Source: a virus. Taken from it: a DNA stretch of 37,483 bases. Location: the IMG/VR virus record IMGVR_UViG_3300034073_002379, positions 1-37,483 of that record; one strand, given 5' to 3'. The position numbers and the translations under genes are program-made. Below, piece after piece: positions 6,346-37,225 of this stretch (its first letter is position 1; every line of letters starts with the position of its first letter). Under the pieces are notes generated by a model, which worked only from the letters and a program-made list of their open reading frames with translations, was not told the origin of the DNA and ran no database searches.

Positions 6346-8069
6346 TGGCGCGGATTCCTCAATACTCAGGCGGTAACGTCCAGCCGATTGTCAGGCCCGG
6401 CCCGCGTGTCACCGGGGCGCCTAGCCAAGATCAGGCATCACTTCCCGGTCGCCAGCTTCAAGGCTTGGCTGGGGCCGTTGGCGCAGTAGGCGATGCCATT
6501 GGTGACTACGCCGCCAAGGAACAGGAGAAGATCAACAAGGTCCGGTTCAACGACGCCTATAACCAGGCGCTCAATGAAGCGAACCGGCTCAAGAACGAGA
6601 TGGCGCAGTATCAGGGCGCCGAAGCGGTCAAGGGGATCAATGGCAGGCCCCTGACGGATCATTACCGCGATGAGTTGCAGAAGGCGTTCTCGAAGATCGG
6701 GGAAGGACTGTCTGCGCCTGACCTGAAGGACGGGTTTGGGCTTGCGGCAGATGACCTTGCGGCGAAGTTCATGCGCGAGGCTGACACGTATTTTGTGGAG
6801 CAGGGTGCGGTCTATACTGAACAGGTCAGGGATGCGACGGTCATTGAATCGTTCAACCAGATTGCCACGGCGCCGTCTTCTCCCCTTGTGTCTGCCCATA
6901 TGGCACGGGCACGCGATGCGATTACCGACAAGTTGCGGGATTCTGGCTTGGACGGGGAAGCCCTTGACCAGCAGGTAAAGCGCACCCTGACGCAGGGCCA
7001 TACCAATATCATCGACCAGCTCAACAAGGCTGGCAACTATGCCGAAGCGCAGGCTTACTTTGACCGGCACAAGTCGGACTTCATGGAAGCCGATGCCAAG
7101 GCGATGCAGACCGCAATGGATGACTATGACCGTGACCTGAAAGTCATGGGCAAGGCAGACGCGATCTGGGCGGAATCCGGCGGTGACTATGGCGTGGCCA
7201 TTGGCATGGCGGCGAAGGTCACTGACCCCCGCGAGCGCGCTGATCTTGAGGCCCGCATCAACACGCTGAAGACGCAGGGCGATGCGGCGCAATCTGCCCG
7301 TGATGACGCTGACTTGCGGGAGGGAATGGGCTTTGTGGTGGCAGGGCAACCCCTGCCGGCAGAATACCGGCGCCGTGTTTCCCCATTGGTTCTCGACCGT
7401 ATCCAGACCGAACAGCGTACCCGTGCGCTCTGGGAACAGCAGATGGCCACATCCAGCGCTGAACAGAAAGCGGCCTTGAAACAGGCCAGCCAGCTATCAT
7501 TCGACTCTCTGAAGGTTGCGAGCGTCACGCGCGGCTGGCGAGAAATTTACATGACGGGACCTGAAAATTGGCCAGAGCGACTAGCCACCGATTACGCCCG
7601 TCTCTCGCCTGAGCATAAGGCAGATATTGAGCTTGATATTGCGACAAAGAAAGCGGGTGGCGGCACGGTTAATGCGGCAGATGCGGTCATTGCGGACGTG
7701 ATTAGCGGTATCGCTATGTATGGCCCGCCTGAAATGAAGGGCAAGGATTTTTCCATGTCCAGCAAAAGCACTGGCAGGGCGCTAGAGGAAGAACGTGCGG
7801 TGCTGGCGTCTATTGTGCGCCAGGCTGAGGATTATTCTCGCCGGTCGGGCGGGGCGCCGATCACGCCGCAGGATCGCAAGATCATGATTGCGCGGGCGTT
7901 CCGAGAAGCCAATCCTGCCGTGTATCCCTATGCGCCGGGAGACCAGCCCAAGAGCGTGGCTGAGGCTGCACGAGAGGCAATGGCTATCCGTGAGGACTTG
8001 CGCGAATTGCTGGGCCGTGAACCGACGCAGCAGGAAATCAACCAGATCGCACAGGAAATGGCCCGTTGA
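6345..8069 (+). CDS. Internal virion/ejection protein (gp15-position)
   Basis: A 574-residue, largely helical protein with a charged, Ala-, Gln- and Arg-rich sequence and no membrane segments. Long coiled-coil-like stretches lie at about residues 70-130 and 240-340. It occupies the place of T7 gp15 between the gp14-like gene and the giant ejection protein. I see no enzymatic motif, so the role is inferred from position and helical character. Its stop codon overlaps the TTG start of the giant gene (TTGA). Confidence 0.65.
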   Translation: MARIPQYSGGNVQPIVRPGPRVTGAPSQDQASLPGRQLQGLAGAVGAVGDAIGDYAAKEQEKINKVRFNDAYNQALNEANRLKNEMAQYQGAEAVKGINGRPLTDHYRDELQKAFSKIGEGLSAPDLKDGFGLAADDLAAKFMREADTYFVEQGAVYTEQVRDATVIESFNQIATAPSSPLVSAHMARARDAITDKLRDSGLDGEALDQQVKRTLTQGHTNIIDQLNKAGNYAEAQAYFDRHKSDFMEADAKAMQTAMDDYDRDLKVMGKADAIWAESGGDYGVAIGMAAKVTDPRERADLEARINTLKTQGDAAQSARDDADLREGMGFVVAGQPLPAEYRRRVSPLVLDRIQTEQRTRALWEQQMATSSAEQKAALKQASQLSFDSLKVASVTRGWREIYMTGPENWPERLATDYARLSPEHKADIELDIATKKAGGGTVNAADAVIADVISGIAMYGPPEMKGKDFSMSSKSTGRALEEERAVLASIVRQAEDYSRRSGGAPITPQDRKIMIARAFREANPAVYPYAPGDQPKSVAEAAREAMAIREDLRELLGREPTQQEINQIAQEMAR

Positions 8070-11000
8070 CCGACACAAGCAATTCGCTGACGCCTGAGCA
8101 GATCGCGGAATTGAAGCGCCGCCGCGATGAACGGCAGGGCAAGGTCATCGACTTCAACACGCAGCGCAACGTTGTGCTGGAAACCGACACGGCGGATGAC
8201 GCTGCCTATGACCTGAAAAAATCTCAGGAATTGGGTATTCCCCGTGAAGCCATTGGCGGGGCGCGCGAGGAATACCGGGCCGAAGATACCCTGCGGAAAA
8301 TGCAGGAAATGCGTCAGGCCGCGCCCAAGGCAAGCGAATGGCTGACCCAGCCGGACAATTACGCGGTTGCCAAGGATGACGTAGAGACGCTTTCCCAGCT
8401 TGAGACCACGCTAAAGAAAATCCCGCCAACCAAGCCTCAATACGCGCTCGGCACCTACAACATCACGCCAGCGGTGGAGATGTTCAAGGGCGCCTTTGCT
8501 GATCCTAAGAAAGCCGCTGCACAGGTTGGCGATGTGGGCCGGTCGGTGTTCTCCGCTGCGCCCATGACGATTGGCAGTGTCTCGTCTGGTCTGGGATCGT
8601 GGCTTGATAGTGCCATCACGTTCACCGAAAAAAACATCTACGGCAACATCCCCGTAGTGAACCGTGGCGTTCAGGAAGCGATTGACTGGGAACGCCGGTT
8701 CTTTGCCCGCCACCCGGAAGTCGCTAAAACCATCACGCCGTATGCCGGGCCGTCTGCCATCCTCAAGACGTATGGCGCCGAGGGCAAGAAAATCCAGCAG
8801 GCATGGCAGCCAGCGGACATGGGGTTCGAGGACAAGGTTGCCCAAGGTGTGGGGCAGATGGTTGTGCAGGTCGGCCTTGCCCTTGCCACGGGCGGCACAT
8901 CCATGGGCGCGGCTATCTCAACCGGCTCGTTCATGGCGATGGGCGCGGACCAGCAGGCTGAAGCCTTGAAAGCCGCTGGGCTTAATCCGGACGAGTATTT
9001 CGGGCAGTTGTCTGCCGGCGCGGCGATCACCGGCAGCGCCGAGATGATGCGCCTCAACTCGATCATGAAGATACTGCCCCCGGCCATGCGGGACCGGGTG
9101 ACTAAATCGGTCGTGTCTCGGATTGCGTCTCAGGCGTTTGAGGAAGGCGCACAGGAGGCGATTGAAGGCGTCCTGCACAACGTGGTCACGATGAGCTATG
9201 ACCCGCGTGCGACGATCCTAGGCGGTGTTGCTGAGGCCGGGGCGGTAGGCGGTACGGTCGGCGGCTTGTTTCAGGGGCTGATTGAGCTTCTGACACCGGG
9301 CCGGATGCGGGGCGGTACGGGCGTCCAGCTTGACAAACTGATGGCAGACATGGCCCGCGAGGAAACCGAGATTGCGGAATCGGCTGACGAGAAGGCGTTG
9401 GCCGAGACCATTGCGCGCGTCGGTCAGATGAAACTGACGGGCCTGTCACCGGAAAAAGCGGCAGAAGTCATTGGCCGGGTTACTGAAGGCACTGGCGTTG
9501 AGACCGTGACGGTCGATCTGGACGGCGCTGTGGAGGCATTGCAACAGGCCGGTGTTGATCCGGTGGAGGCTTTGTCTGCCCTCGGTGTGAGCGAGGAACA
9601 GCTTGGCCAGCGGTTTGAGCGGTTCGGTGAGATTGAGGTCTCAACAGCTACGCTGCTCACGTCTCCCCTGATGCGGGACAATGCGTCGATTGTGACGCCG
9701 CATCTTCGGACGGGGGCGGATAGTGTCACGCCTGCGAAGAAGGAAGCGCTGCGCGAGGAATTTCAGGCGCAGGTTAAAGAGCGTGTTGCCGAAATTGAGG
9801 AAGCTCTGGCAGGCGGCCGCGAACTGGCGGACAAGGAGCAGGCCGTTCTTGACCGTGTGACTGAGCGGCTTTCCGCATCTGGGATGTTCCCTGAGCGGCG
9901 TATTCTGGATGCACAGGCAGCGGTGCAGGCTGCAACGGTGAACACGTTTGCCGCCCGGATCGGCATGGACCCGGTCGAGTTCTACGAGCAGCACTTCCCA
10001 AAAGTCCAGGGCTCCATCGACGGCATGGTGATGGAGGAGAATGCGCTGGATCAGTCATGGTTCAAAGGCTTTGGCAAAAAGCAGGACCAAGGCCCTCGCA
10101 CACAGGACACGATTGGCCGCGAGATCAAGGACATTGAGAAGAAGCTACGCCGCAAAGGCTACACGCTGAACGAGGCTGAAACGCTGGCCGAGGATGGCAC
10201 GTTGCCGCCCGAACTTCGCGGCCTCATGATCCAGCACGGCGACCTTGTGCGCGAAAGCGGGCGAATGCAGGGCGCTGCCCGAACGGCAAAGGGCGGTGTT
10301 GAAACTGACCCTGAATACCTCCGCGCCGAAAGCGAAATGAACAAGGCGATGGATGACGTTGCCAACGCTGAATACGAGATTGCGCTTGAGTTGAGGGAAA
10401 AAGGACTGACGTGGGAAGGCGATGACGCTGAGTTCATGGGCGTCGTTGATCAGCTCCGCCGCGAAGGGAAACTGAGCAATTACATTGCATCCCGTGTGCA
10501 GGATTTGCGAGACGCATCTACGCGCATGTTTGACGCTCAGGAAAAAATGCAGGCGCGCGTCAAGGCGTTTGCCCCCCCTGAAAGCTACCCTGTAAACACT
10601 GGCCAAGCTCCAGTTGTGCCGGGTTTTCGTGCGCTTAGTCCTGAAGAAAAAGCTGCTTTCCGGCCAAGTCAGGGTTTTGACCCGGCACGAAAGCGCATGA
10701 CGCAGGACACGGACGCTCTGGAGCAGGAACGGCGCGGCCAGTTCTCCCCCGACACCAACACCGTCACCTTGTTCGAGCAAAGCGACGTGACCACGATGCT
10801 GCACGAGGGCGCGCACTGGTATCTTGAGACCCTGTTCCGCATGGCGACATCGGAGAACCCGCACCCGTTCGTGACGGAGCAGTACAACGCGATCCTGGCC
10901 TGGGGCAAAGTCGGTTCCAATTTCGAGATGTACGACGCAGCCGGCCGCCTCACCCCTGAAGGCCGCGAACTGCACGAGACATGGGCCGAGACGTTCGAGG

Positions 11001-14000
11001 TCTACATCCAGACCGGCAAGGCGCCTACGTCTGCCCTGCGTGACACGTTCCGCGCGTTCAAGACGTGGATCACGGCGCTCTGGAAGCGCATGTATGGCGG
11101 CGGTCAGCCGGCGCGGGCAAACCTCAACCCCGAAGTCATCGCCATCATGGACCGGATGCTGGCCGTCGATGAGGAGATCGAGGCCGAAGTCGCTGGCATC
11201 ATGGTCGGCGCACAGGCTCAGGCGAAGGCCTTGCTGGACGCCAAGGTCATCACGCAGGCGCAGTATGACAAGGCGCTGGCGAACCTCGATGAGGCGCGTG
11301 AGAAGGCCAAGGAAGACTTCGGCGCGCGTGTCATGGCGGACAAGATGCGCGAAGATGAGGCGTGGTGGAACACAGAGAAGCGCCGGGTGCGGGGCGATGT
11401 GATCCGGGAACTGGACCGCTCGCCTATCGGGCGGGCGCTGTCATGGCTGGGCTATGGGCAGTGGAAGGGGGATGTGCCGGTATCGGAAACCCCAACCGAA
11501 AGCGCTGAGACAGAGTTCTATCAGGGCGCGGATCGCGGCGAGGCGCAGGAGTGGACCGAGGCTGTCGCCAAAGGGCTGCCGATGGATCAGGCAAGCCGGA
11601 TGGCTCGGGCGCAAGAGCAGGGCTGGGTCGGCGGATATTACCACGGCACCACGGCCAACGTGCGGGCTTTTGACCTCTCCAAAGCGAACATCGAAAGCGA
11701 TTGGGGCGCTGGGGTCTACCTGTCAAACACACCGGGCGATGTTGCCAGCAATTACGCTGGCCTTGGTCCAGACCTGACTAACAAGATTGAACGCGAGGCA
11801 GAGCGCATCGCAAGCGAGACAGACCGAGATTACAACGACCCCGAAGTCATCGCTGAGGCCCGCGCGAAGTGGGTTGCCAACGAAGGCATGACGATGCCGC
11901 TCATGGTGCGCCTGCGCAATCCTGTGATTGTTGGCGGGCCGAACGAGACGAAGTTTACCTACGAAGAAGCCTACGATGAAGAAACGGACGAGTACGGTGA
12001 GCCGACCGGCACCCTGATTGACTTCATGGAGAGCCTCGGCAGGGCGGCTGAGAACTTTGACGATGCAGACGTGTCTGATGCGGTCAGCCGCCTTCAAGAA
12101 AGGGCGATGGACTATGGCGAGATCGGAATTTCCGATGCGGTTGCCATCGTCAAAGAGTTTGTTCCGTATGCGGCGGACCCCAATACGCGCGACATGGCCA
12201 ACAATGAACTGATCCGCCAATCTCTGGAGGACATGGGCTTTGACGGCATCATCGACAACACCGTTGATGTGAAGTTCGGAAGCCAGCGCCGCGTCGGACA
12301 GAAGATGGCAGGCATGACGCCGGACACGGTGCATACGATCGTCTTCGACCCCGCTAACATTCGCAGCGTCCATGCCGCCTTCGACCCAGACAACTCATCG
12401 AGCGCTAACCTGCTCGGCCAATCCATCCGCGCCGCCACCCGTATGCCGATGTCCGAAGTAGACGCATGGGTGCGGGCGAACGTCACGGCGACCGAATCCG
12501 ATATGCCGGGCGGCGATGTCCTGACAGTGCTGAAGTTTATGCTGACGGAAGACCCTGATGCGCCGGAGGTGATGCTATCGATCCGGCTCAAAGAACGCTC
12601 GAACCGGAGAGATCAGGGCCGGGCTGACGTGAACCTGTTCCTCGACAACCAGATGGCTGACGCGCTGGAGAACGTTGAAGACCCCGTACAGCGCGCAATG
12701 CTGGCCAAGATCATGTTTGCCAAGACGGTCATGGTCATGCGCCAGTATGGACAAGAATACGATGTGAAGGCGTTCAATTTCACGGCGGCGGAAAGCCAGG
12801 CCGAAGGCACGAACGCGAAGTCCCGCGAAGACCTTTATCGCTTCATGCTTTCCTCGCTGTCGATGCCGGGCTATAGTGCCTACGAAATCGAGAGCCAGAC
12901 CAGCATCGTCAACCGGGACGAAGACGGCGCAAAAGCCGCCAACCCGATGCTCGGAATGGCTGGCTTTGTAATCATCAAGGATGGAGTGAACGTTGAAGAC
13001 TTCGCCAAAAACGAAATCCTCCGAGGCTCCCAACGCGGCGGCGATGCCGGAGAAGTCGTCACCGTCGCCCGTGCGACCCCCCTCGGACGCCGAGATACTG
13101 GAGACGGTAGCGGACGTGGACGGCGAGGAACTGGCGCGGCTGATACTGGCGGCGCGGTAGATAACTCGCTGGGGCAGGAGGCTCCGGCCTCTCCGTTCTA
13201 CTCCCAACTCCAGCGCGTCATTGAACGCTCTGCCACGACACGCGCGCCTGCCTCGCAATGGCTTGGCATCATCCGCAACGCGCCCGGCGTGAAGGCTGAG
13301 GAGGTCGAGTGGACCGGCGTGCAGGAATACCTTGAAGCACAGGACGGCCCCGTCACGCGCGAAGCCTTGGCTGCGTTCCTTGATGGGAATGGGGTGCAGG
13401 TGGAGGAGGTGGTGAGGGGAGGCGCCTCCTTTGATGAAGACCTGCAACGAAAACTGCTGCCACTGATCGAAGAGCTTGACCGCCTCACTGACAGCATGGA
13501 CCCGAACAATCAAGCCAGCATTGACGCCGTTCTTCCGCGTTACCGCGAACTTCAAGATCAAATTGCCAACATCCGCGAAACGATGAATGCGGGGATTGGC
13601 GATGTAATGGATGAAACCAAATGGTCCTCCTACACCCTCCCCGGCGGCGAGAACTACCGGGAGATGCTGCTGACGTTGCCGGTAGGTGAGCGCTCCGAAC
13701 TGGAGGCGCGCATCGATGATCTCGGCGCGCGGATGGAAGCCTACGATATGTCGCAAGGGATGGGCGGGTTCAACGCCCTGTCAATCGAGCGCGACAAGCT
13801 GGTATCTCAGCGCCAAACCTACCGCTCCTCCCACTGGTCCGAACCCAACGTCCTCGCCCACGTCCGGTTCAAGGAGCGCACTGGCCCGAACGGCGAGCGC
13901 GTCCTTGCGCTGGAGGAAGTCCAGAGCGATTGGCATCAGGCGGGGCGGGAGCGGGGCTATAAGCCTAAAGGAGAGCCGCCAAGTTTTGAAGACTGGTACG

Positions 14001-17000
14001 CCGGAAACGGCATGGCTTTGTTTGGCGAGCCGTTCGACCAGCTTGATGCGCGTGCTCAGGGTATGGCGCGCCAGCGCTGGGAAGATGCGACACGCCGGGG
14101 CTTCACAGGCGCTATTCCAGACGCCCCCTTCAAAAACAACGCATGGGCTGAACTCGTCCTCAAGCGGATGATCCGCTGGGCTGCGGACAATGGTTTTGAC
14201 AGCGTTGCGTGGATACCGGGCAACATCCAGAACGGGCGGATCGTGGAAGACACTGGCGATAATCGCGGCGACTTCTACGACAAGATTTTGCCGAACATCG
14301 CCAATAAACTGGGGAAGAAGTATGGGGCGCGATCCGAAAGGCTTGAGTTTGATCTCGGCCCTGACGCCGCTGGATCAAAGTTCGAGATACTTGACGCAGA
14401 CGGAAACTCGTTTGGGCGTTTTCCATCCGAAGCCCGCGCGAACGGGGTAATCATGAGCCTTCTGGCGGACCAGCCGGACGGCACGTTTACGGTGTCTCCA
14501 ATCGGTCCATTTGTCACGTTCCACTCCCTCCCCCTCACCGACGCCCTGCGTACCGCTGCCATCAGCGAAGGCTTCCCCCTATTCCAACCCGGCGACCCCA
14601 AAGGCTGGGGCGAAACCGCGCCGCCTCCGAACCTCCCCCCGATGCGCCTTGACCTCGCAGAGACCGAGCGCCTGTATGGCAAGGAAGCCGTGGCGAAGCT
14701 GCCCAAGGCGATCCGCGACCGGGGCCGGGACCAGACCAGCATCGACAGCATGTTCGCCATTGCACGGGCGACGGCAAAGACCCTGCGCCGCAAGCCGCCG
14801 AAGTCGCTGTTCCAGTTCATCCGGTCCCGCAAGGCCCGCACGGTCGAAGGCAAGACCGTCCCGGTCAAGCAATGGGGCATCCGGGGCGCGGCGGACGAAC
14901 TGAAAGCTATGGACCGGGCCGACCTCATCAACGAGGAAAACGGCATCCATATCGACTACATGCGTGAGCTGGCTGAGGAAGCCGGGTATCTCCCTGAAGG
15001 CTCGACGGTGAACGACATGCTGAACGCCATCGACCGCGAGGCGCGGGGCGAGCCGGTCTATTCGAGCCAGGATCAGAACGAAGTCCTCGACTACCAGAAC
15101 GCCGAGGAATGGGCGAACTGGTTTGATGAGCAGGGCGTGGACATCACCGACAAGGACGAGAAGGCCCTGCGCGCCAAGCTGGCACAGGTCGTCACGTCTA
15201 CCGCTGCCGATGCCGTGACGCCGGATCAGGCCGCAGAGCTTCTGGGCTTCAACACGGGCGAGGAACTGCTGGCCGCGCTGGCAGAGATTGGCAACCGCGA
15301 GCGGTTCATCCGTGAGGAAACAGACCGCCGGATGGCGGCAGAGTTTGGCGACCCTTACAAGGACGGAACATTTGCCGAGGCGGCGCGTCAGGCGGCTGAG
15401 ATCGAAGTGAAGGCCCGCGCGGCCGAGATCGAACTGGAAGCGCTGGCAAGGGCCGTAGGTGAGAGTGCCGCGTCCCGCATGGCGAAGCAGATGGCCGAGG
15501 ACGCCCTTGCCCTGATGACGGTGAAGGAACTGGCAGGTTGGACGAAGTTCCTCGACGCCGAGCGCCGTCATGGCCGCAACGCGCTGGCCGCCACGAAGAA
15601 GGGCGACATGGCAGAGGCCATGCTGCACAAGCGCCGGCAACTCGTGTCGATGCACCTTGCCAAGGCCGCCCGCGAGAAGTCCGAGGCGCTGGAGAAGACG
15701 CGCAAGGACCTGATGAGCTATCTCACGTCCAAGGGGCGGCGGGATAAGATTGCCCGCGATTACCTCGACAAGATCGAGGCGCTGCTTGACCAGTACGAAC
15801 TGCGCGCCTCCAAGCAGGGGCCAGGCACCCAGCGCGCCCGCCTGTCTGCCAAGCAGTACGTTGAGCAGATGATTGCGGACGGGCGCGAGGCAGAGATTGC
15901 GCCGGAAGCCATGCTGCTGGCCGAGATGGCGGACGCGAAGGTGTGGCGTGACCTGCTGGCTGAGGAGGCTGACTATCTGGCGGGGACGGTTCGCAACCTT
16001 GCCCACCTTGGCCGCACTAAGAACAAGCTGATGAAGGCGCAGGACAAGCGCCGGTTTGATGCTGTCGTGGCCGAACTGGTGGATACGCTGGTGGCGTCTC
16101 CGACAACCAGGCCCCGCGCGCAATCGTTCACGCCAACGACCGTGGAGCGTATCGCCAAGGGCCTGCGCGAGTTCGATGCCCGCATGACCCGCCTTGAGTT
16201 CCAGTTGCAGAAGCTGGACGGGCGCGAGAACGGCCCGCTGTGGAACGCATTATTCCGTCCATTTGCTGATGCGTCTGACGTGGAAACCGAGATGATGCGC
16301 GGCGCGGCGGGGTCGATGCGTGACCTTTATGAAGCCTTCACCGCAGATGAGCGCCGCCAGCTATTCCATCGCCGCGTGGCAACACCTGAGATCGACGCCC
16401 CCGGCAAGGGCCTGACCCTGATGGATGTCGTGGTGATCGGCCTGAACTGGGGCAACGAAGGCAACCGCAAGGCCTTGATCGATGGCTATGGCTGGGACCC
16501 GGCTCAGGTCGAGGCGATGCTGAACCGTGTCCTGACAGACAAGCACTGGGACTTCATCGAAGGCACATGGTCCCTCATCGAATCCTACAAGGCCGAGGCG
16601 TTCGCGCTGGAAAAGGCCATCACGGGTGTCGAACCCAAGGCCGTGGCGGGTGTGGACTTCACCCTTGCCAGCGGCCGCGTCATTAAGGGCAAGTATTATC
16701 CGCTCAAGTATGACGGCGCGCAGGCCCGCGCGGACAGCGTTGTCATCAGCCGCCTCGATGAGAAGCAGGCCCTCTCTGATCTGGGCAAGACATTCTCCAA
16801 GCCGATGACGAAGACGGGCCACCTGATCGAGCGTGTCGGCTCTGGCGGCAAGCCGGTGAAGATCAATATCAGCGTCATGCATGACCATGTGCAGAACGTA
16901 ATCCATGACATTGCCTATCGCCGTGCGGTGATCGACGCGCACCGGATGATCCGCGATCCGCGCTTTGCCAATGCGTACATCGCGGCAGCGGGTAGGGAAC

Positions 17001-18133
17001 AATATGACCAGCTTCTCCCGTGGCTCGCTGCGATTGCGACCGAGCGGAACGGCGATCCTGGCGGTATCGTGACGAAGATCATGCAGGTCGGGCGCCGCAA
17101 TATGACCGTGGTGGCAATGGGCTACAAGGTGGGCACAGCCCTCCAGCAGATCACCGGACCTATCCAAGGCATGACCATGATTGGCCCGGCCTATGTGGCG
17201 CAGGGCTTTGTCCGGGCGCTGGCAGGCGGTCCCGGCTCGTTCTGGAGTGCATGGAAATGGGTGTCGGCCAAGTCCGAGTTTATGCGGGACAGGCCGCAGG
17301 GCTTCGACCGTGACATGCGGATGGTTACAAACAGGTTGCAGGAACGCACCCCGCTGGGCGCGATCCAGCGCAATTCGATGATCCTGACGCAGATTGTGGA
17401 CGTGGCATCCTCGACGATTGTGTGGATCGGCGCGTATCAGCGGGCGCTTGACGGCAACGTTGAGGGCATCGCCAAGGGCGCCGAGGAAGACGCGATTGCA
17501 TGGGCCGACAGCGTTGTCAGGCAGACGCAGGCGGCGGGCAAGATACAGGACCTTCCCCAGATCATGCGCGGGACTGAGGCTGAGAAGCTGGTCACGATGA
17601 TGTTCAGCTATTTCAGCGGCCTCTATAACCTGACGCGCAAGCAGGGCAGCATGACCCGGTTCGGGCAGATGAGCCCGATGGTGTTCATGGCAAACATGGC
17701 CTTGCTGTTTGTCGTTACCCCGCTGTTTGCCGCTGTGCTGGCTGGGCGGTTCCCGCCTGACGACGAGGACGAGGAAGAACTTGCCCCGGCTGTGGCAAAG
17801 GAGTTGGCATCGAACGCGGCCGGCACGATCCCGATATTCCGTGACATCGTAAATGCCTCTCTCAATCCGCAGTTCGGCTACCAGATGAGCCCTGTCGGAT
17901 CGGGTATTGACCGCTTGACGAGCGCAGCCGCAAGGGCCGGGGCAGGTGAAACCCTTGAAAGCGAAGCGGCTGTGAAGGAAGCAGTCAATGCTCTGGGCAT
18001 CCTGTTCGGCCTTCCGACCGCGCAACTTGTCATCATGGGCGACTATGCAAATGACCTTGCCACAGGGGAAGAAGACCCCACGGAAGACCCTGTTGATGCC
18101 GCAAGGGAAGCGCTCGTGAGAAGCAACCGATGA
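8066..18133 (+). CDS. Giant polyvalent internal virion protein (3355 residues)
   Basis: The frame is uninterrupted for 10 kb, starting at TTG 8066 after AGGAAATGG. Several domains typical of phage polyvalent proteins are visible. A zincin-like peptidase has HEGAH at residues 913-917 and WAETFE at 973-978 as third ligand. An ADP-ribosyltransferase-like domain spans about 1190-1440, with YHGTT at 1192 and FDPANIRSV at 1427. A following domain has LEEVQSDWHQ at 1949-1958 and AWAELVLKRM soon after. Long charged helical segments fill about 2300-2650. A C-terminal domain has a hydrophobic stretch near 3206-3230 and an acidic PPDDEDEEE tail. The N-terminal 420 residues hold glycine-rich amphipathic segments. 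By position it is the large ejection protein delivered into the host with the DNA; the enzymes may then act on host proteins. Long antisense frames here are shadows. Confidence 0.85.
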   Translation: MTDTSNSLTPEQIAELKRRRDERQGKVIDFNTQRNVVLETDTADDAAYDLKKSQELGIPREAIGGAREEYRAEDTLRKMQEMRQAAPKASEWLTQPDNYAVAKDDVETLSQLETTLKKIPPTKPQYALGTYNITPAVEMFKGAFADPKKAAAQVGDVGRSVFSAAPMTIGSVSSGLGSWLDSAITFTEKNIYGNIPVVNRGVQEAIDWERRFFARHPEVAKTITPYAGPSAILKTYGAEGKKIQQAWQPADMGFEDKVAQGVGQMVVQVGLALATGGTSMGAAISTGSFMAMGADQQAEALKAAGLNPDEYFGQLSAGAAITGSAEMMRLNSIMKILPPAMRDRVTKSVVSRIASQAFEEGAQEAIEGVLHNVVTMSYDPRATILGGVAEAGAVGGTVGGLFQGLIELLTPGRMRGGTGVQLDKLMADMAREETEIAESADEKALAETIARVGQMKLTGLSPEKAAEVIGRVTEGTGVETVTVDLDGAVEALQQAGVDPVEALSALGVSEEQLGQRFERFGEIEVSTATLLTSPLMRDNASIVTPHLRTGADSVTPAKKEALREEFQAQVKERVAEIEEALAGGRELADKEQAVLDRVTERLSASGMFPERRILDAQAAVQAATVNTFAARIGMDPVEFYEQHFPKVQGSIDGMVMEENALDQSWFKGFGKKQDQGPRTQDTIGREIKDIEKKLRRKGYTLNEAETLAEDGTLPPELRGLMIQHGDLVRESGRMQGAARTAKGGVETDPEYLRAESEMNKAMDDVANAEYEIALELREKGLTWEGDDAEFMGVVDQLRREGKLSNYIASRVQDLRDASTRMFDAQEKMQARVKAFAPPESYPVNTGQAPVVPGFRALSPEEKAAFRPSQGFDPARKRMTQDTDALEQERRGQFSPDTNTVTLFEQSDVTTMLHEGAHWYLETLFRMATSENPHPFVTEQYNAILAWGKVGSNFEMYDAAGRLTPEGRELHETWAETFEVYIQTGKAPTSALRDTFRAFKTWITALWKRMYGGGQPARANLNPEVIAIMDRMLAVDEEIEAEVAGIMVGAQAQAKALLDAKVITQAQYDKALANLDEAREKAKEDFGARVMADKMREDEAWWNTEKRRVRGDVIRELDRSPIGRALSWLGYGQWKGDVPVSETPTESAETEFYQGADRGEAQEWTEAVAKGLPMDQASRMARAQEQGWVGGYYHGTTANVRAFDLSKANIESDWGAGVYLSNTPGDVASNYAGLGPDLTNKIEREAERIASETDRDYNDPEVIAEARAKWVANEGMTMPLMVRLRNPVIVGGPNETKFTYEEAYDEETDEYGEPTGTLIDFMESLGRAAENFDDADVSDAVSRLQERAMDYGEIGISDAVAIVKEFVPYAADPNTRDMANNELIRQSLEDMGFDGIIDNTVDVKFGSQRRVGQKMAGMTPDTVHTIVFDPANIRSVHAAFDPDNSSSANLLGQSIRAATRMPMSEVDAWVRANVTATESDMPGGDVLTVLKFMLTEDPDAPEVMLSIRLKERSNRRDQGRADVNLFLDNQMADALENVEDPVQRAMLAKIMFAKTVMVMRQYGQEYDVKAFNFTAAESQAEGTNAKSREDLYRFMLSSLSMPGYSAYEIESQTSIVNRDEDGAKAANPMLGMAGFVIIKDGVNVEDFAKNEILRGSQRGGDAGEVVTVARATPLGRRDTGDGSGRGRRGTGAADTGGAVDNSLGQEAPASPFYSQLQRVIERSATTRAPASQWLGIIRNAPGVKAEEVEWTGVQEYLEAQDGPVTREALAAFLDGNGVQVEEVVRGGASFDEDLQRKLLPLIEELDRLTDSMDPNNQASIDAVLPRYRELQDQIANIRETMNAGIGDVMDETKWSSYTLPGGENYREMLLTLPVGERSELEARIDDLGARMEAYDMSQGMGGFNALSIERDKLVSQRQTYRSSHWSEPNVLAHVRFKERTGPNGERVLALEEVQSDWHQAGRERGYKPKGEPPSFEDWYAGNGMALFGEPFDQLDARAQGMARQRWEDATRRGFTGAIPDAPFKNNAWAELVLKRMIRWAADNGFDSVAWIPGNIQNGRIVEDTGDNRGDFYDKILPNIANKLGKKYGARSERLEFDLGPDAAGSKFEILDADGNSFGRFPSEARANGVIMSLLADQPDGTFTVSPIGPFVTFHSLPLTDALRTAAISEGFPLFQPGDPKGWGETAPPPNLPPMRLDLAETERLYGKEAVAKLPKAIRDRGRDQTSIDSMFAIARATAKTLRRKPPKSLFQFIRSRKARTVEGKTVPVKQWGIRGAADELKAMDRADLINEENGIHIDYMRELAEEAGYLPEGSTVNDMLNAIDREARGEPVYSSQDQNEVLDYQNAEEWANWFDEQGVDITDKDEKALRAKLAQVVTSTAADAVTPDQAAELLGFNTGEELLAALAEIGNRERFIREETDRRMAAEFGDPYKDGTFAEAARQAAEIEVKARAAEIELEALARAVGESAASRMAKQMAEDALALMTVKELAGWTKFLDAERRHGRNALAATKKGDMAEAMLHKRRQLVSMHLAKAAREKSEALEKTRKDLMSYLTSKGRRDKIARDYLDKIEALLDQYELRASKQGPGTQRARLSAKQYVEQMIADGREAEIAPEAMLLAEMADAKVWRDLLAEEADYLAGTVRNLAHLGRTKNKLMKAQDKRRFDAVVAELVDTLVASPTTRPRAQSFTPTTVERIAKGLREFDARMTRLEFQLQKLDGRENGPLWNALFRPFADASDVETEMMRGAAGSMRDLYEAFTADERRQLFHRRVATPEIDAPGKGLTLMDVVVIGLNWGNEGNRKALIDGYGWDPAQVEAMLNRVLTDKHWDFIEGTWSLIESYKAEAFALEKAITGVEPKAVAGVDFTLASGRVIKGKYYPLKYDGAQARADSVVISRLDEKQALSDLGKTFSKPMTKTGHLIERVGSGGKPVKINISVMHDHVQNVIHDIAYRRAVIDAHRMIRDPRFANAYIAAAGREQYDQLLPWLAAIATERNGDPGGIVTKIMQVGRRNMTVVAMGYKVGTALQQITGPIQGMTMIGPAYVAQGFVRALAGGPGSFWSAWKWVSAKSEFMRDRPQGFDRDMRMVTNRLQERTPLGAIQRNSMILTQIVDVASSTIVWIGAYQRALDGNVEGIAKGAEEDAIAWADSVVRQTQAAGKIQDLPQIMRGTEAEKLVTMMFSYFSGLYNLTRKQGSMTRFGQMSPMVFMANMALLFVVTPLFAAVLAGRFPPDDEDEEELAPAVAKELASNAAGTIPIFRDIVNASLNPQFGYQMSPVGSGIDRLTSAAARAGAGETLESEAAVKEAVNALGILFGLPTAQLVIMGDYANDLATGEEDPTEDPVDAAREALVRSNR

Positions 18134-18967: not shown

Positions 18968-20475
18968 TGAAGCTGCCCAAAATTCCATCCTTCAAGCGTG
19001 AGCCCAAGACCCCTGAGCAGCTTGAATCAGCTATCGCGGCGCGGGCAGCACGGCAGGCTGCTCGCATTGCTGCGCGAGGTAAAGCCCGAACCAAACTTGA
19101 TGAAGCAAAAGACGGCATCCACGTCCGCCCGATGTCCGTCATCATCATCAACTGGTCAGTTTATGCTGCACTGATTGCTGCAATCGCTATTATCGCGGCG
19201 GGCTACTGGTATGACCTCCTGTTCTACGGCCAACAGCACGATGACATCGCCGTAGTCATTGGCCTGATTGCATTTGCCTTTGTGGTTCGCACCGTTGCGA
19301 CCGCAGGCGACGTGATCCTGCACTGGTCTAAGCCGGAGCATCGCCGGGACACTGATCCGCCCGATGGAATGAAGGCCATCATTGGCGACAATCGCGGCGT
19401 CCGATGGTCGCTCCGCGTCATGTGGATCGGGTCGATCCTCGCTTGCTCCGTCGCCACGCTATCGTTCTTCTCAGCTGGCCATGAAAAGCGTGTTGCGGAC
19501 GCGGCTGGTATCACGGCGACCGAAACTGGGATTATGACATCCAAGAAGGAGCGCATTGACGCGCTGGAGGCCCAGAAAAAAGAGGCTCTTGGGGCGCGGG
19601 ATACCGTGTTTGAGGCGGCGGACAACACCATCGCAGCCATCAAAGACGAAACGCCCGGCATTAGCGTTGCGGACAATGCCACAATTCAGAAGGCAAATGA
19701 TTCCAAGGACGCCGCAACAATTTCCTACAACGATACGGTCAAGGCCCTGAATGATCAGATCAACGCCATCAATGCAGAGAAAGAGGAGGAAATAAAACAG
19801 GTCACGGTTGAGCGCGTGACGGCCATTCCGTTCCTTTCGGTTTACCAGTTCCTCTCGCGCCTGATCGGAAACGCGGACGGCTGGACGATTGTGGGCGCGT
19901 GGTTCTTCTCGGCTTTGTTTGAGCTTCTGTGTGCCAAGCTGCTATCAACCGTCTTTGCGCTAATGAAAATCGTCAAGCGTGTGTCTCGTGCCATCGAGAT
20001 GCGCGAAGCCGCTGACGAGATGAACGCCCGTATTGCGCTGGAGCGGATGCGGTCGAACATCGAGATTGATGCGATCCGCCTGCGCTCGGCGCAGGCTCAA
20101 GAGCGGGCGCTGGCTGACATTGATCTGGCGCAACGTGAGCGTATGGTTGAAAAGGCCCGCGCTCAGGCGGAGGCCATTCGGACGGGTGCCCCGTGGATTG
20201 ACCCTGACGATCTGCTGAATGTTGAAACGGCCTTGCGCCGTGCGGAGACAGAGGCGCGCATCCGTAAGATCGAGGAACGCGCTGCCAAGATTGCAGCGGG
20301 CGAGATTGATCCGGATGCGCCAGAAGTGGACGCTTCACCTGAACCGCCAAGGCCCAAAGACCCGAACAAAGTCAAGGGCGCTGAGTCCACGAACTTCACC
20401 AAGGAAACAGACAAGATTGACGACAGCCTGCCGATAGATGAGCCGGGCGCTTTTGATCGGGATCAGGGATCATGA
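18967..20475 (+). CDS. Four-helix membrane protein with long coiled coils
   Basis: The 502-residue product has a basic N-terminus (residues 1-55) and three membrane helices at about 58-80, 92-112 and 145-165. The third is followed by FFSAGHEKR. A charged coiled coil of about 100 residues follows, then a fourth hydrophobic stretch around 300-330 (WFFSALFELLCAK). The last 170 residues are a highly charged cytoplasmic coil rich in Arg, Glu and Ala, and an acidic/proline end. I do not recognise a family. The stop overlaps the ATG of the Hsp70 gene (ATGA), so these two are probably translated together. The layout closely parallels the leftward protein at 26305-27042. Confidence 0.65.
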   Translation: MKLPKIPSFKREPKTPEQLESAIAARAARQAARIAARGKARTKLDEAKDGIHVRPMSVIIINWSVYAALIAAIAIIAAGYWYDLLFYGQQHDDIAVVIGLIAFAFVVRTVATAGDVILHWSKPEHRRDTDPPDGMKAIIGDNRGVRWSLRVMWIGSILACSVATLSFFSAGHEKRVADAAGITATETGIMTSKKERIDALEAQKKEALGARDTVFEAADNTIAAIKDETPGISVADNATIQKANDSKDAATISYNDTVKALNDQINAINAEKEEEIKQVTVERVTAIPFLSVYQFLSRLIGNADGWTIVGAWFFSALFELLCAKLLSTVFALMKIVKRVSRAIEMREAADEMNARIALERMRSNIEIDAIRLRSAQAQERALADIDLAQRERMVEKARAQAEAIRTGAPWIDPDDLLNVETALRRAETEARIRKIEERAAKIAAGEIDPDAPEVDASPEPPRPKDPNKVKGAESTNFTKETDKIDDSLPIDEPGAFDRDQGS

Positions 20476-21932
20476 GAATTGGCATCGACTTCGGCACTAC
20501 AAATTCCTCGGTTGCCTATTTCCGTCCGTCTGGTTTTGCCGAGACAATCGAGACGATTGACGGTTCGGACTACATGCCGTCCGCTGTGGCTGACACTCAA
20601 GAGGGTGTTCTTGTCACTGGCGCTGCCGCGCTTCGTCAATTGCGCCGCGCGCCTGAGTTCACGTTCCATAACATCAAGCGCTACCTCGGCGTCGATTACA
20701 ACGAGCAGGAGCACGGCTCGATCCATCTGGCCGAAGGCCCTGACGGCAAGGTCTGGTGGCGGGGGCGTAATGCCCTGCTGTCCGGCCCGATGCTGGTTGC
20801 TGAAGTTCTCAAAAGTCTCCTGCTGGCCGCAGATGTGCGGCTCGGGCGGAGGCCCACGGGTGCGGTTATTGCCGTGCCTGTGGACTTCCGCGAGCCCCAG
20901 GATGACGCCATTCGGGAAGCCGCTGCATTGGCGGGCATCAAGAAGGTTGACCTGTTCCGCGAGCCGTTCTGCGCCGCGTTTGCCTACTCCCTTGACCGCA
21001 CGAAATACAGCCGGGTTCTGGTCTATGACTTCGGCGGCGGCACGTTCGATGCCACGATCCTGAGAATGAAGGACGGCAACCTCAAGCCGCTAGGCATGTC
21101 CGGCTCTGCCCAGCTTGGCGGGGCGGACTTTGACAAGCGGCTGGCTGACTATGCTGTTGACCAGTTCTTTGCCAAGGAAGGCGAAGACCTGCGGGCACAG
21201 CCGAAACAGATGGTTGGTGTTCTCCGTGCGGCCGAAGACGCAAAGAAAGCCCTGTCCACGTCCGAGACCGCGCTGATCGAGGAAGCTAACGTTGCATGGC
21301 GCTCCGGCCTGTCCAGCCTGACAGAGCCGGTTACGCGCACGCAGTTTGAGCAACTGACGGAAGACCTCGTGATCAGGACCATTGCCAGTGTGCAGGACGC
21401 GCTCGCACAGGCGAAGATGACGCCGGCAGAGATCGACGGTGTGCTTCTGGTGGGTGGGCAATCCCGAATGCCCCTGATCCGCTCGGTGCTGGAAGGCATG
21501 TTCGGGGCGAAGAAGATCATCAAGGACGGCCCGAAAGCTGAACAGGCGGTTGCGCTTGGTGCTGCAATCCGGGCGGCAGAACTGGATGGGCGGATCAAGC
21601 CTGCCGTGATGCAGCAGCTTGTGACGGCCTCGGTCGGGGTGCGAGTGGCCGGGGGTGGATACTACGCATTTATCAAGAAGGGCGAGACGTTCCCGATCCG
21701 GCGCGAGCGGGTTCTCCGTGCGGCGCGGGAAGACCAGACCGAGATCGAGCTGGTTGTCCTGCAAGGCGATGATCCGGTGGCGAAAGGCAATACGGAAGCC
21801 TGGCGCTGCACTTTGCCGGTGGAGGCCGGGGCTCGGATTCCGGTCATGCTGGACATTGACCCCGGTGGGCGCTTGAAAGTCTGGATTGCTGGCGAGGTCG
21901 TTTATGGCGGGACGCAGGAGGAAGCGGCGTGA
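20472..21932 (+). CDS. Phage-encoded Hsp70 (DnaK-like), lacking the lid
   Basis: The 486-residue product has every nucleotide-binding landmark of Hsp70. Phosphate-1 loop is GIDFGTTNSS at residues 4-13, phosphate-2 is DFGGGTFD at 186-193 with the DnaK Thr199 equivalent at T191, and the adenosine motif is VGGQSRMP at 327-334. A HNIKRYLG stretch carries the DnaK Lys70 equivalent. Residues 384-478 align with the beta-sandwich substrate domain (VTASVGVRVAGG, VVLQGDD, DIDPGGRLKV). The VLLLD linker is replaced, and the roughly 130-residue alpha-helical lid is absent. It is an ATP-driven chaperone; which client it serves is unknown. No DnaJ or GrpE gene is in the window, so host cochaperones would be needed. 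It lies between late structural and lysis genes. Confidence 0.9.
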   Translation: MRIGIDFGTTNSSVAYFRPSGFAETIETIDGSDYMPSAVADTQEGVLVTGAAALRQLRRAPEFTFHNIKRYLGVDYNEQEHGSIHLAEGPDGKVWWRGRNALLSGPMLVAEVLKSLLLAADVRLGRRPTGAVIAVPVDFREPQDDAIREAAALAGIKKVDLFREPFCAAFAYSLDRTKYSRVLVYDFGGGTFDATILRMKDGNLKPLGMSGSAQLGGADFDKRLADYAVDQFFAKEGEDLRAQPKQMVGVLRAAEDAKKALSTSETALIEEANVAWRSGLSSLTEPVTRTQFEQLTEDLVIRTIASVQDALAQAKMTPAEIDGVLLVGGQSRMPLIRSVLEGMFGAKKIIKDGPKAEQAVALGAAIRAAELDGRIKPAVMQQLVTASVGVRVAGGGYYAFIKKGETFPIRRERVLRAAREDQTEIELVVLQGDDPVAKGNTEAWRCTLPVEAGARIPVMLDIDPGGRLKVWIAGEVVYGGTQEEAA

Positions 21933-33915: not shown

Positions 33916-34146
33916 ATGTCTAACGATGATTTACCCTCCAATTTGCCCGCAATCAAGCCCTCGATTGCGGACCAGTACGAGGAACGCCGTGCAATTCTAA
34001 AGGCGCGGTATGAGGCTGAGCAAGCGCTTCCCGATGAAGTTAAACGGCTTTTGGACGGGATGCGTTGGCGCCTTCTGTCTGGAGGTCGCGGTTCGGATTA
34101 TACCGAACTGAAGCGCCTTGCCCTCGAAATTTGGGGCGGCAAGTGA
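33916..34146 (+). CDS. Hypothetical 76-residue protein before the helicase
   Basis: ATG 33916 is preceded by GGAG. The product is acidic at the N-terminus (SNDDLPSNLPAIKPS) and helical thereafter (YEERRAILKARYEAEQALPDE). It overlaps the helicase start (GTGA), so it may be a helicase partner, but nothing more can be said. Confidence 0.55.
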   Translation: MSNDDLPSNLPAIKPSIADQYEERRAILKARYEAEQALPDEVKRLLDGMRWRLLSGGRGSDYTELKRLALEIWGGK

Positions 34147-35534
34147 CTTTGGCACCGCATTCACAATCCGCCGAGTATGGCGTTCTCGGAAGCCTGTTGT
34201 TTGAAGGCTCGATTTACTGGCGCCTTGAAGACATTTTGACGCCGGAAGATTTTTTCACCCCTGTTCATGGCGACGTGTTTGCTGCTGTGCGGGATATGAA
34301 CCGCGACGGACGGGCCATCAACCCAACCAGTGTGGCGGATTACCTGAAAGCCAATGAGGTCTTTACCGCGACCGGCGGCGAGGCATGGCTTGAAACCCTG
34401 CTGGACTATGCCGGTTCCGCTTTTGAAGCGGCAGACCATGCCGGGATCATCGCCAAGGCGTCCCAGAAGCGCCGCCTGATGGCCGCTGGCCGTGATCTGG
34501 CTGCGCTGGCAGCGGAAGACGCTGACGCGGCTCTGGAAGCCCACGAGACGGCTTTGCAGGCCATCCGCGAGCGGCAGTCCAGTCACATGGCTATTGATAG
34601 CTGTGCGGACGGGGATGTGTTTACCGAGAACGACGCTGACAGCCTTCTGCTTTCCGGCTTTGCCCGGCTCGATACCGAGATTAGGGGCTTTGAGCGGGGG
34701 GCGTTGTCGATCATTGCAGCCCGGCCCGGCGTCGGCAAGACGGCGTTTTCGATTGCGATGGCGGCGAACATTGCCCGGAATGAGACGGTCGGCTTCCTGT
34801 CGCTGGATATGCAGGGGCGGGTCATTAAGCAACGCCTTGCCTGCTGCCTTTACTTTGCCAAGCCAGGATTTCACCGGACGCCGACAGTGGCGGACCTGAA
34901 GCAGCCCGGCGCGGTGCCGGAGCAGACTATGCAGGCTATGCGGGACATGCTGCGCGGCGACGTGGCCAAGCGCATCCTTGTGAACGATCGCGGCGGGCAG
35001 ACAACCCGCACGGTATCTGGACAGGTCAGGGCATGGCACCGGCATTGCCGGAAGATGGGCCTGCCGCCTTTGGGTGCCGTGTTCATTGACCACATTGCGA
35101 AAGTTGCCCCGGCGCAGAAGGCCGGAAGCCTTTACGAAAAGACCAGCTATGCCGCAAACGAGTTGCTGGACCTAGCCAAGCAAAACCCGCGCACGGCCAT
35201 CATTGCCCTGTGCCAGCTTAACCGTGACACCGAGAAGGCTACCCGGCGCCCGATGATTTCGGACCTGCGGGACAGCGGCAAGGTGGAGGAAGATGCTTCC
35301 CTTGTGCTGTTGCTGCACCGGGAAGACATGCGCTGGGCGTTGGCCGCTAAGACAGCCTCGACGGCTGACGAGAAGCACAAGGCGAACGCCGAGCTTCTGC
35401 GGGTCAAGGGCGATCTGGAAATCATTATTGGCAAGAACCGGAACGGTGAGCAGGGGGCGGTCACGCTCTGGCACAGCATGGCACACAATGCCGTGCGTGA
35501 TCTGCGCGCCCCGGCGATGGAGGAGGTAGGATGA
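34143..35534 (+). CDS. DnaB-type replicative helicase
   Basis: GTG 34143, overlapping the upstream stop, gives 463 residues; an in-frame ATG at 34065 lies within the previous gene. The N-terminal DnaB domain (AEYGVLGSLLFEGSIYWRLEDIL, residues about 10-100) and a RecA-like ATPase domain are both present. The Walker A is PGVGKT at 195-200 and Walker B is FIDH with D316. A conserved RDSGKVEEDASLVLLLHRED stretch and a KNRNGEQGAVTL end are typical. It unwinds DNA at the fork, 5'-3'. No separate loader is obvious; the initiator protein downstream may recruit it. Confidence 0.9.
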   Translation: MTLAPHSQSAEYGVLGSLLFEGSIYWRLEDILTPEDFFTPVHGDVFAAVRDMNRDGRAINPTSVADYLKANEVFTATGGEAWLETLLDYAGSAFEAADHAGIIAKASQKRRLMAAGRDLAALAAEDADAALEAHETALQAIRERQSSHMAIDSCADGDVFTENDADSLLLSGFARLDTEIRGFERGALSIIAARPGVGKTAFSIAMAANIARNETVGFLSLDMQGRVIKQRLACCLYFAKPGFHRTPTVADLKQPGAVPEQTMQAMRDMLRGDVAKRILVNDRGGQTTRTVSGQVRAWHRHCRKMGLPPLGAVFIDHIAKVAPAQKAGSLYEKTSYAANELLDLAKQNPRTAIIALCQLNRDTEKATRRPMISDLRDSGKVEEDASLVLLLHREDMRWALAAKTASTADEKHKANAELLRVKGDLEIIIGKNRNGEQGAVTLWHSMAHNAVRDLRAPAMEEVG

Positions 35535-35776
35535 ACGGTCTCGATTTATTGAAAACGGCATTGCGGGAAATGGAAACCGAAAGCTCTGACTGGAGCTTTT
35601 CGAGAGCCTGGACCCTGCTGTTGATTGGCGTGGCAGAATTGGACGTTTTGAGCGTCGATAAGGACAAGCTGGCCAGCGTCATTGCTTTCCTAACGGATGT
35701 CGAAGGCGGAAGCTCGGAAGATTATTACGAGGTTTGGCGGGACATAGTGGATCACGCAAAGGCGGGCGAGCTATGA
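35531..35776 (+). CDS. Hypothetical 81-residue protein
   Basis: ATG 35531 overlaps the helicase stop by ATGA. The product is helical and acidic, with Trp-rich first half (SSDWSFSRAWTLLLIGVAEL) and acidic second half. Position between helicase and initiator suggests a replication-linked role, possibly as a loader, but without a recognised domain. Confidence 0.6.
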   Translation: MNGLDLLKTALREMETESSDWSFSRAWTLLLIGVAELDVLSVDKDKLASVIAFLTDVEGGSSEDYYEVWRDIVDHAKAGEL

Positions 35777-36657
35777 GCCAAGCAAGGCTTTCAATCACAC
35801 CGGCTGACGCATGGTCAGACCAGCGCTTGACGCCCCTGCAATGCCGTCTGCTGGGCCTGATAGGTTCATATCTGGGCAAAGACCACCGGGCATGGCCTTC
35901 ACAATCGACGCTGGCGGCGCAGCTTGGCGTCAGCCGGAAGGCTGTCAACGAGGGCATCCGGGCGCTCGTTTCCTATGGGTACATCAAGGCAGAACGCCGC
36001 CGCCGGGACGATGGCGGGGAGACTTCAAGCGTCTATTTCGTGGTCATGGACCCTGTGGAAAGAGTGGGTATGGAGGGTTACACCCCCTGTAACTCCACGG
36101 TTACACCCCTGTCACCGCAGCGTGACACCCCCTGTAACCCTATGGAGGTTACACCCCCTGTAACCCCTAGAGGTTACACTAACGATACCATAGAACGACC
36201 CAATGAAGTTCATGCGGTTCAGGTGCTTGAAAACATTTGGCAGGCTTGGTCACCTGAAGGCCGGAAACGGTCGAAGGCAAAAGCGAAAATTGAGGCTCAG
36301 CTAACTTCCCTCGCCAAGCATCACCCCCTGCAAGCCATCGAGCGTGCGGCAATCGCCTTCGCTCGTGATGCCAAGCCAGAGTTCCACCCGGCGCTAGACC
36401 GCTGGCTGAAGGACGGCAAGTTTGAGAACTGGCAGGAGGCTGCGCCGATCGCGCAAACCGAGCTGACCACCGACGAATGGGCAAACGCTATGCGCCATTG
36501 GGTCGGCACTGACGAATGGCTGGCTGGGCATGTCTGCCCCGCCCCTGATCAACCCGGATGCACAGCGCCGGAAGCAATGCTGCGCCACGCTGCAAAACTG
36601 CGGCCCGAACTGGCCGAGAACATCAACCGCAACATCGAACAAAGGAAAGTTGCATGA
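35773..36657 (+). CDS. Lambda-O-like replication initiator
   Basis: ATG 35773, four bases overlapping the previous stop, gives 294 residues. The N-terminal 100 residues are a winged helix-turn-helix: LTPLQCRLLGLIGSYLGKD, then SQSTLAAQLGVSRKAVNEGI and a beta hairpin. A central linker of about 35 residues (102-137) is encoded by the iterons. The C-terminal domain has a helical AIERAAIAFARDAKPEF and a LDRWLKDGKFENWQ motif seen in initiator/helicase-loading proteins of phages. It should bind the iterons in its own gene and recruit the helicase encoded just upstream. A four-base ATGA joins it to the DnaA-like gene. Confidence 0.75.
   Translation: MSQARLSITPADAWSDQRLTPLQCRLLGLIGSYLGKDHRAWPSQSTLAAQLGVSRKAVNEGIRALVSYGYIKAERRRRDDGGETSSVYFVVMDPVERVGMEGYTPCNSTVTPLSPQRDTPCNPMEVTPPVTPRGYTNDTIERPNEVHAVQVLENIWQAWSPEGRKRSKAKAKIEAQLTSLAKHHPLQAIERAAIAFARDAKPEFHPALDRWLKDGKFENWQEAAPIAQTELTTDEWANAMRHWVGTDEWLAGHVCPAPDQPGCTAPEAMLRHAAKLRPELAENINRNIEQRKVA
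36076..36179. repeat. Iteron array, probable replication origin
   Basis: Units built on GTTACA-N5-TGTAAC (inverted repeat arms of six bases) occur at 36076-36093, 36099-36115 (one base shorter, TGTCAC end), 36121-36138 (left arm GTGACA), 36147-36164 and a half unit at 36172-36179. Start spacings are 23, 22, 26 and 25 bases. The units fall in different reading frames of the overlapping initiator gene, so the DNA, not the protein, is conserved. A somewhat AT-rich stretch follows to about 36240. Confidence 0.75.
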
Positions 36658-37028
36658 ATACCGAAGGGCTGACGACACTAGGACCACCCGCCGAAGCGCA
36701 CATCCAATGCGTGATGCAAGAATATGGCCTGACCCGCCAAGAACTGACCGGCGCCACGAAACTGCACAAGGTCATGCCTGCCCGGCGCGATCTGTTCATC
36801 CGCCTCCTCTGCACCCCTTGCAAATGGGTCTACGGCGTCCCTCAGTACCGCTCTCTCCCCCAAGTAGGCCGCATCGTGGGAGGCCGTGACCACACCACAG
36901 CGCTTTACGGCATCAGGGCTTACGCGGTGGAGTTCCTAGACCTGCCTTGGAAATCCAGCGTGGCCGAGATTCGCGTTGCTTACATTGCCAAATCCCAGCA
37001 AGCTGAAGGCATGGAGATTGCAGCGTGA
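36654..37028 (+). CDS. Stand-alone DnaA domain IV-like DNA-binding protein
   Basis: ATG 36654 overlaps the initiator stop. The 124-residue product lacks the ATPase domain of DnaA but carries the DnaA domain IV pattern. There is a helix GLTRQELTGATK near residue 25, then MPARRDLFIRLL, then YRSLPQVGRIVGGRDHTTALYG with GGRDHTTAL at residues 76-84, the DnaA-box recognition signature. It may bind DnaA boxes in the phage or host origin. A C-terminal extension of 30 residues is extra. It overlaps the next gene by GTGA. Confidence 0.85.
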   Translation: MNTEGLTTLGPPAEAHIQCVMQEYGLTRQELTGATKLHKVMPARRDLFIRLLCTPCKWVYGVPQYRSLPQVGRIVGGRDHTTALYGIRAYAVEFLDLPWKSSVAEIRVAYIAKSQQAEGMEIAA

Positions 37029-37225
37029 GCCGCAGCTACCCCATGCAAACCCCGGCAGACGCCCGTGCTGAACGCCACGCGAGAACCTTCATGGCCTCAC
37101 AGCTTCCCCCTATTGACCCCCGCGTCAAAGAACTGGCCTCCCAAGGCTACAACGCGCTCCAGATTGCCAGCTTGCTGCGCCTGCCGGCCATTGACGTTCG
37201 CCTGATGCTGGCGGTGAAGCGATGA
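37025..37225 (+). CDS. Hypothetical 66-residue protein
   Basis: GTG 37025 overlaps the preceding stop. The N-terminus is polar (YPMQTPADARAERHARTF), and the last 35 residues look like a small helix-turn-helix (VKELASQGYNALQIASLLRL, then VRLMLAVKR). A DNA-binding role is possible but only weakly supported. Confidence 0.5.
   Translation: MSRSYPMQTPADARAERHARTFMASQLPPIDPRVKELASQGYNALQIASLLRLPAIDVRLMLAVKR

Follow-up and report, generated by a model that had tools for sequence, protein, structure and literature searches.

A probable lambda-type replication origin within the HTH_36 initiator gene of a BcepC6B-related phage

Replication origins that lie inside the gene of their own initiator are known from phages lambda and SPP1. 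In lambda, the iterons are inverted repeats that are bound by O dimers, and an A+T-rich region of 40 bp comes after them (PMC5043065, PMC7466680); the four iterons annotated in O (NC_001416) start 20, 24 and 23 bp apart, in frames 0, 2, 2 and 1, and have the core TCCCTC-N5-GAGGGA. SPP1, a Bacillus phage, has origin repeats (oriL) inside initiator gene 38, beside an A+T-rich unwinding element, and its repeats are described as direct; it also has a second origin, oriR, a loader, gp39, and a phage-encoded DnaB-type helicase, gp40 (PMC6316719). Iteron plasmids of the P1, R6K and RK2 type likewise place a row of initiator-binding repeats next to an A+T-rich segment, but there the repeats are direct, of the monomer type, and lie outside rep. 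The Paracoccus plasmids pAES7, pMARC3, pMOS2 and pAES1 encode a Rep of the HTH_36 family (PF13730) and have iteron-like repeats, although their oriV is treated as a separate region by rep and not as an array in linker codons; pAES7 has a partial iteron at the rep start codon, and in pKL1 oriV lies upstream of rep (PMC3832669). In the BstA/aba system of prophage BTP1 a short DNA element also overlaps the gene of its cognate DNA-binding protein (PMC8585504), but there the element serves self-immunity in defence and is not an origin, the protein has a KilA-N-like domain, and the repeats are direct (CCCGCC) and sit at the gene start. The accessible (mostly non-subscription) literature yielded the origins of lambda and SPP1, but we found no account there that extends intragenic origins to HTH_36 initiators in general. 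Judged from its sequence, the locus described here may be an entry point to that wider pattern.

The window, the whole 37,483-nt stretch of viral DNA that was analysed, comes from a relative of the BcepC6B/BPP-1/AF-like podoviruses (capsid about 49% identical). The following features of its replication region are relevant here:

34143..35534 (open frame from 34065), + strand: DnaB-type replicative helicase, upstream of the initiator (DnaB_C, 1e-44; phrog_19, 1e-65; TIGR00665, 5e-65)
35531..35776, + strand: small ORF of 81 aa between helicase and initiator, overlapping each by a few bases
35773..36657, + strand: replication initiator gene, 294 aa, winged-helix HTH_36 (PF13730, 4e-12; phrog_270, 5e-22)
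35803..36042, + strand: codons of the winged-helix DNA-binding domain (residues 11-90; recognition helix SRKAVNEGI)
36077-36093, no strand: iteron 1, GTTACACCCCCTGTAAC, perfect GTTACA-N5-TGTAAC
36100-36115, no strand: iteron 2, GTTACACCCCTGTCAC, N4 spacer, one mismatch
36122-36138, no strand: iteron 3, GTGACACCCCCTGTAAC, one mismatch
36148-36164, no strand: iteron 4, GTTACACCCCCTGTAAC, perfect
36173-36178, + strand: trailing half-iteron GTTACA, facing the A+T-rich segment (sequence reading)
36161..36239, no strand: candidate A+T-rich unwinding element (50-mers down to 42% GC against 60% GC for the window)
36654..37028, + strand: DnaA-domain-IV-only protein, downstream of the initiator (Bac_DnaA_C, 1.1e-8, above cut-off)

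The initiator scores 46 bits against PF13730, for which the Pfam cut-off is 25, and its best PHROG is one of replication initiation (phrog_270), accompanied by the O-like families phrog_391, phrog_678 and phrog_345. These remote families are common to lambda O and the window protein. Their Pfam families differ, however, as O matches PF04492 at 6e-36 whereas the window protein, a PF13730 member, has no PF04492 match at E<=0.1. An AlphaFold model built with 12 sequences folds residues 11-90 into a winged helix (block mean pLDDT about 64-85), leaves residues 98-145 disordered (pLDDT about 30) and ends in a helical C-terminal part. The codons of the array, about 102-136, fall within this predicted disordered segment. 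The 81-aa ORF upstream matched no family among the Pfam, PHROG and further family profiles.

Direct reading of the sequence places four GTTACA-N4/5-TGTAAC dyads and a trailing half-site at 36077-36178, well within the gene. The sequence-only reading had described four full copies and one half copy, and that count is right, although just two copies are perfect and one has an N4 spacer. Start-to-start steps, half-site included, are 23, 22, 26 and 25 bp, within the 22-26 bases given earlier, and dyad centres are 22.5, 22.5 and 26 bp apart, so that the claimed fit to two helical turns is approximate, one step being nearer 2.5 turns. The five copies have reading-frame offsets of 1, 0, 1, 0 and 1 and encode different peptides; copies do therefore lie in different frames, as had been proposed, but two frames are used and the third is not. 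In the whole 37.5-kb window a single GTTACA/TGTAAC half-site occurs outside the array, at 17324. Four other loci (L129, L167, L169 and L270) also have a lone half-iteron after the last full one and ahead of the A+T-rich segment.

Is it the DNA or the protein that holds these repeats in place? In 10,000 synonymous-codon shuffles of the initiator gene, which kept both the protein and its codon usage, the number of dyads ranged from 0 to 3 against the 4 observed, and the best 7-mer, present in 6 copies, reached at most 4 in 1,000 shuffles. Moreover, among near-identical relatives (L121-L123, protein 96-98% identical) none of the 34 third-codon positions in the array varies, whereas 38 of the gene's other 261 do (p=0.012). 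The iterons are selected at the DNA level, and the earlier proposal that they lie within the initiator gene and are kept as DNA is upheld by these shuffles and by the sites themselves.

That proposal had also likened the locus to lambda O/ori, and the architecture is indeed the same. Both have an intragenic origin, here a probable one, with inverted-repeat 6-N5-6 iterons of 17-19 bp placed in several frames at intervals of 20-24 bp in lambda and 22-26 bp in the window, and both have an A+T-rich segment directly 3' of the array (PMC5043065). In the window this segment includes a 50-mer, 36190-36239, of 42% GC, which lies in the lowest 0.4 percentile of the window. One supposed contrast, that the iterons here are palindromic, does not hold because lambda iterons are themselves inverted repeats of identical geometry that lie in more than one frame, making palindromy and frame placement a likeness and not a difference. 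The iteron sequences do differ (TCCCTC against GTTACA), as does the route to the helicase: lambda relies on its loader P and the host DnaB, whereas the window phage has its own DnaB-type helicase directly upstream, a difference that the sequence-only reading did not name. SPP1, which we compared by gene content and array only, resembles the window phage in encoding such a helicase and in having its repeats within the initiator gene. The separate DnaA domain IV protein reported earlier is present, but there is no perfect DnaA box (TTWTNCACA) in the window and so a role for this protein at the origin is unsupported. A weak counterpart of it was seen at 10827-11498 of L133.

We conclude that the locus is very probably a lambda-type intragenic replication origin, on the basis of its anatomy, the constraint on its DNA, the association of arrays with HTH_36 genes, the A+T bias 3' of arrays and the match of recognition helix to iteron class, the last three of which are described below. 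The gene context of initiator, helicase and DnaA-IV protein and the likeness to lambda O/ori also favour this reading, which is the best supported one. We envisage that the N-terminal winged helix, as a dimer, would bind each 17-bp GTTACA-N5-TGTAAC dyad. The array lies in the codons of a predicted disordered linker, whose protein sequence would hardly resist keeping it. Several bound dimers would assemble into a nucleoprotein complex and open the A+T-rich DNA immediately on the 3' side of the array, and the C-terminal part of the initiator may then recruit the phage's own helicase, so that replication would start at this locus. Counting against an origin are that just two copies are perfect and that helicase recruitment is proposed here although no lambda-P-like loader was found, the gene after the initiator being that of the DnaA-IV protein. 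The plan is an ordinary one and the locus is well supported; for this phage, a likely origin, initiator and helicase can be named.

Could the array serve some other purpose? As an operator, the array would let the initiator, or some other regulator, control transcription of the replication genes, and replication would start elsewhere. Winged-helix proteins of the HTH_36 kind do resemble regulators and dyads suit a repressor, but the array sits deep inside the gene, no promoter-like or terminator-like site was found in 35500-37100 (a weak test), and an A+T-rich 3' flank and coupling to initiator genes suit an origin better; we consider an operator unlikely as the explanation, while autoregulation could coexist with origin function. 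It is very unlikely that the repeats are the by-product of a repetitive peptide (TPCN or VTPPVT) of use to the protein. The two frames of the array yield different peptides, its dyads are not reproduced by synonymous shuffles, its third positions are invariant, more than one frame is used in 16 of 26 surveyed arrays, and the segment it encodes is predicted to be disordered. This stands against the observations that some relatives keep their copies in one frame, as 24-nt units reading VTPPVTSD, and that many of the database matches found with the DNA motif come from peptide repeats, tail-fibre GNVTGDVT or PPVTPPVT.

The palindromes might also act in the mRNA as hairpins, in attenuation, decay or translation coupling, and the RNA does fold well (z = -3.8). 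Such folding is, however, expected from any row of DNA palindromes, copies 2 and 3 have uncompensated mismatches, there is no Rfam match, and the array lies within coding sequence away from the start codon, all of which leaves hairpins extremely unlikely.

Further evidence bearing on the origin reading can be found in related phages. Homology (blastn) between the window and sister phage L129 ends at 33918 and restarts at 36660, which delimits one further feature:

33919..36659, + strand: helicase-initiator-origin block, swapped as a unit in L129 (blastn)

The L129 block has a different HTH_36 initiator, 37-38% identical to that of the window, and iterons of GTCACA type, GTCACACCCCCAGTGAC and ATCACACCCCCCGTGAC, 25 bp apart. 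In more distant phages with a 43% identical helicase, the initiator has GATGTC-N9-GACATC dyads (L133) or CCCGTCAAC repeats read by eye (L136). Since the iterons of all three phages differ along with their initiators, initiator and iterons change together, and having reader and site in one gene explains how the block could be exchanged between the window phage and L129 without breaking the match of initiator to origin. A different ORF follows the L129 initiator (3049-3687) and, unlike in the window, no helicase is near by; the part of this ORF that was tested had no family match, and it is possibly a loader.

Does the recognition helix predict the iteron? The helix [ST]R[KP]AVN is common to the window, L145, L153 (Chloroflexota) and the viral contigs L167 and L169, and all have GTTACA arrays, although the latter four were found by DNA pattern. 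A search with the AVN peptide returned further loci, with GTTACA arrays in all that were fetched; apart from relatives of the window, most come from a single close family (L261-L268), and the DNA patterns had already picked out the contigs of L260-L262 and L269. The nearest proteobacterial relative, L270, has an AVQ helix and GTTGCA-N5-TGCAAC iterons, and the far relatives L272 and L280 have an AVQ helix and GGTGCA iterons. Across 15 lineages in 6-5-6 register, helix distance correlated with half-site distance (Mantel r=0.59, p=0.0002) in an exploratory analysis for which lineages and registers were picked by hand and shared ancestry was partly controlled, whereas helix residues 7-9 in the same lineages gave no correlation with the half-site (r=-0.06). 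We also saw TGTAAC/GTTACA repeats at other spacings in three initiator-like genes (L044, L090 and L104) with quite different recognition helices, and GTTACA is therefore not unique to the AVN class.

How far does this arrangement extend? Our survey took in PF13730 genes of Alphaproteobacteria, Chloroflexota and Gammaproteobacteria with 300 nt or more downstream of the HTH; they were gathered regardless of repeats, with the exception of L172 and L173, which lie in genomes found via the DNA motif. An array was scored as a 7-mer present in at least 4 copies and repeated beyond synonymous shuffles (p<=0.01). Such arrays were significant in 22 of 59 HTH_36 genes, a set that includes a few near-duplicates (L212-L214; L172/L173), but in 0 of 108 other ORFs at the same loci (Fisher 5e-12), and the same test in Bacteroidota gave 5/15 and 0/22, respectively. 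About 60% of the sampled HTH_36 genes had no significant array; some of these are LexA-like or truncated (several Bacteroidota negatives resemble LexA repressors by sequence) and others are unexplained. The test is conservative where peptide repeats hold the frame, as illustrated by L172, which fails despite eight evident half-sites. Array sequences are mostly palindromic and vary widely between lineages. The 80 nt that follow the array have a mean GC of 47% over 27 arrayed genes, lower than the 58% of the gene itself (p=1.3e-5), with no difference on the 5' side.

The HTH_36 plan thus looks general, with palindromes very often in the same place but of their own sequence in four bacterial groups, and our survey suggests that initiators of a common but little-studied class, in phages and mobile elements, have their origin within their own gene. 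Origins in uncultivated phages could then be located from sequence. There is about an even chance, in our estimation, that HTH_36 initiators are generally one-gene replicons, with a winged-helix reader, palindromic iterons in linker codons and a 3' unwinding element, in which the helix predicts the iteron (AVN with GTTACA, AVQ with TTGCA/GTGCA, TVN with GTCAC). Winged helices would then have a natural specificity code that might be learned from sequence alone. As reader and site occur together in every such gene, the class supplies matched pairs for studying DNA choice by winged helices.

A universal 6-N5-6 spacing was dropped because dyads are enriched at most spacers and none stands out. The matches listed in a pattern scan of viral contigs were mostly tail-fibre peptide repeats or chance, and were set aside as evidence. 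A nucleotide search with the array gave no match in annotated phages and, among plasmids, a weak match in two Nonomuraea records; a genome-contig scan with alignment A2 gave no relatives.

Another short tandem repeat, (T)GAACC or TAACCGTCAA at 11-14 nt, is often present in the A+T-rich segment after the iterons. We saw it 3' of arrays in L237, L215, L247, L243, L205, L195, L277 and L278, which differ in their iterons, and ATGAAC occurs in 6 of 32 3' flanks against 0.9 expected. This second repeat could be an unwinding motif recognised by the initiator. Elsewhere in the window, a 486-aa ORF at 20472-21932 resembles a DnaK/Hsp70 chaperone when its translation is read by eye, and a single ORF of 3355 codons extends over 8066-18133, within a phage record of 37 kb.
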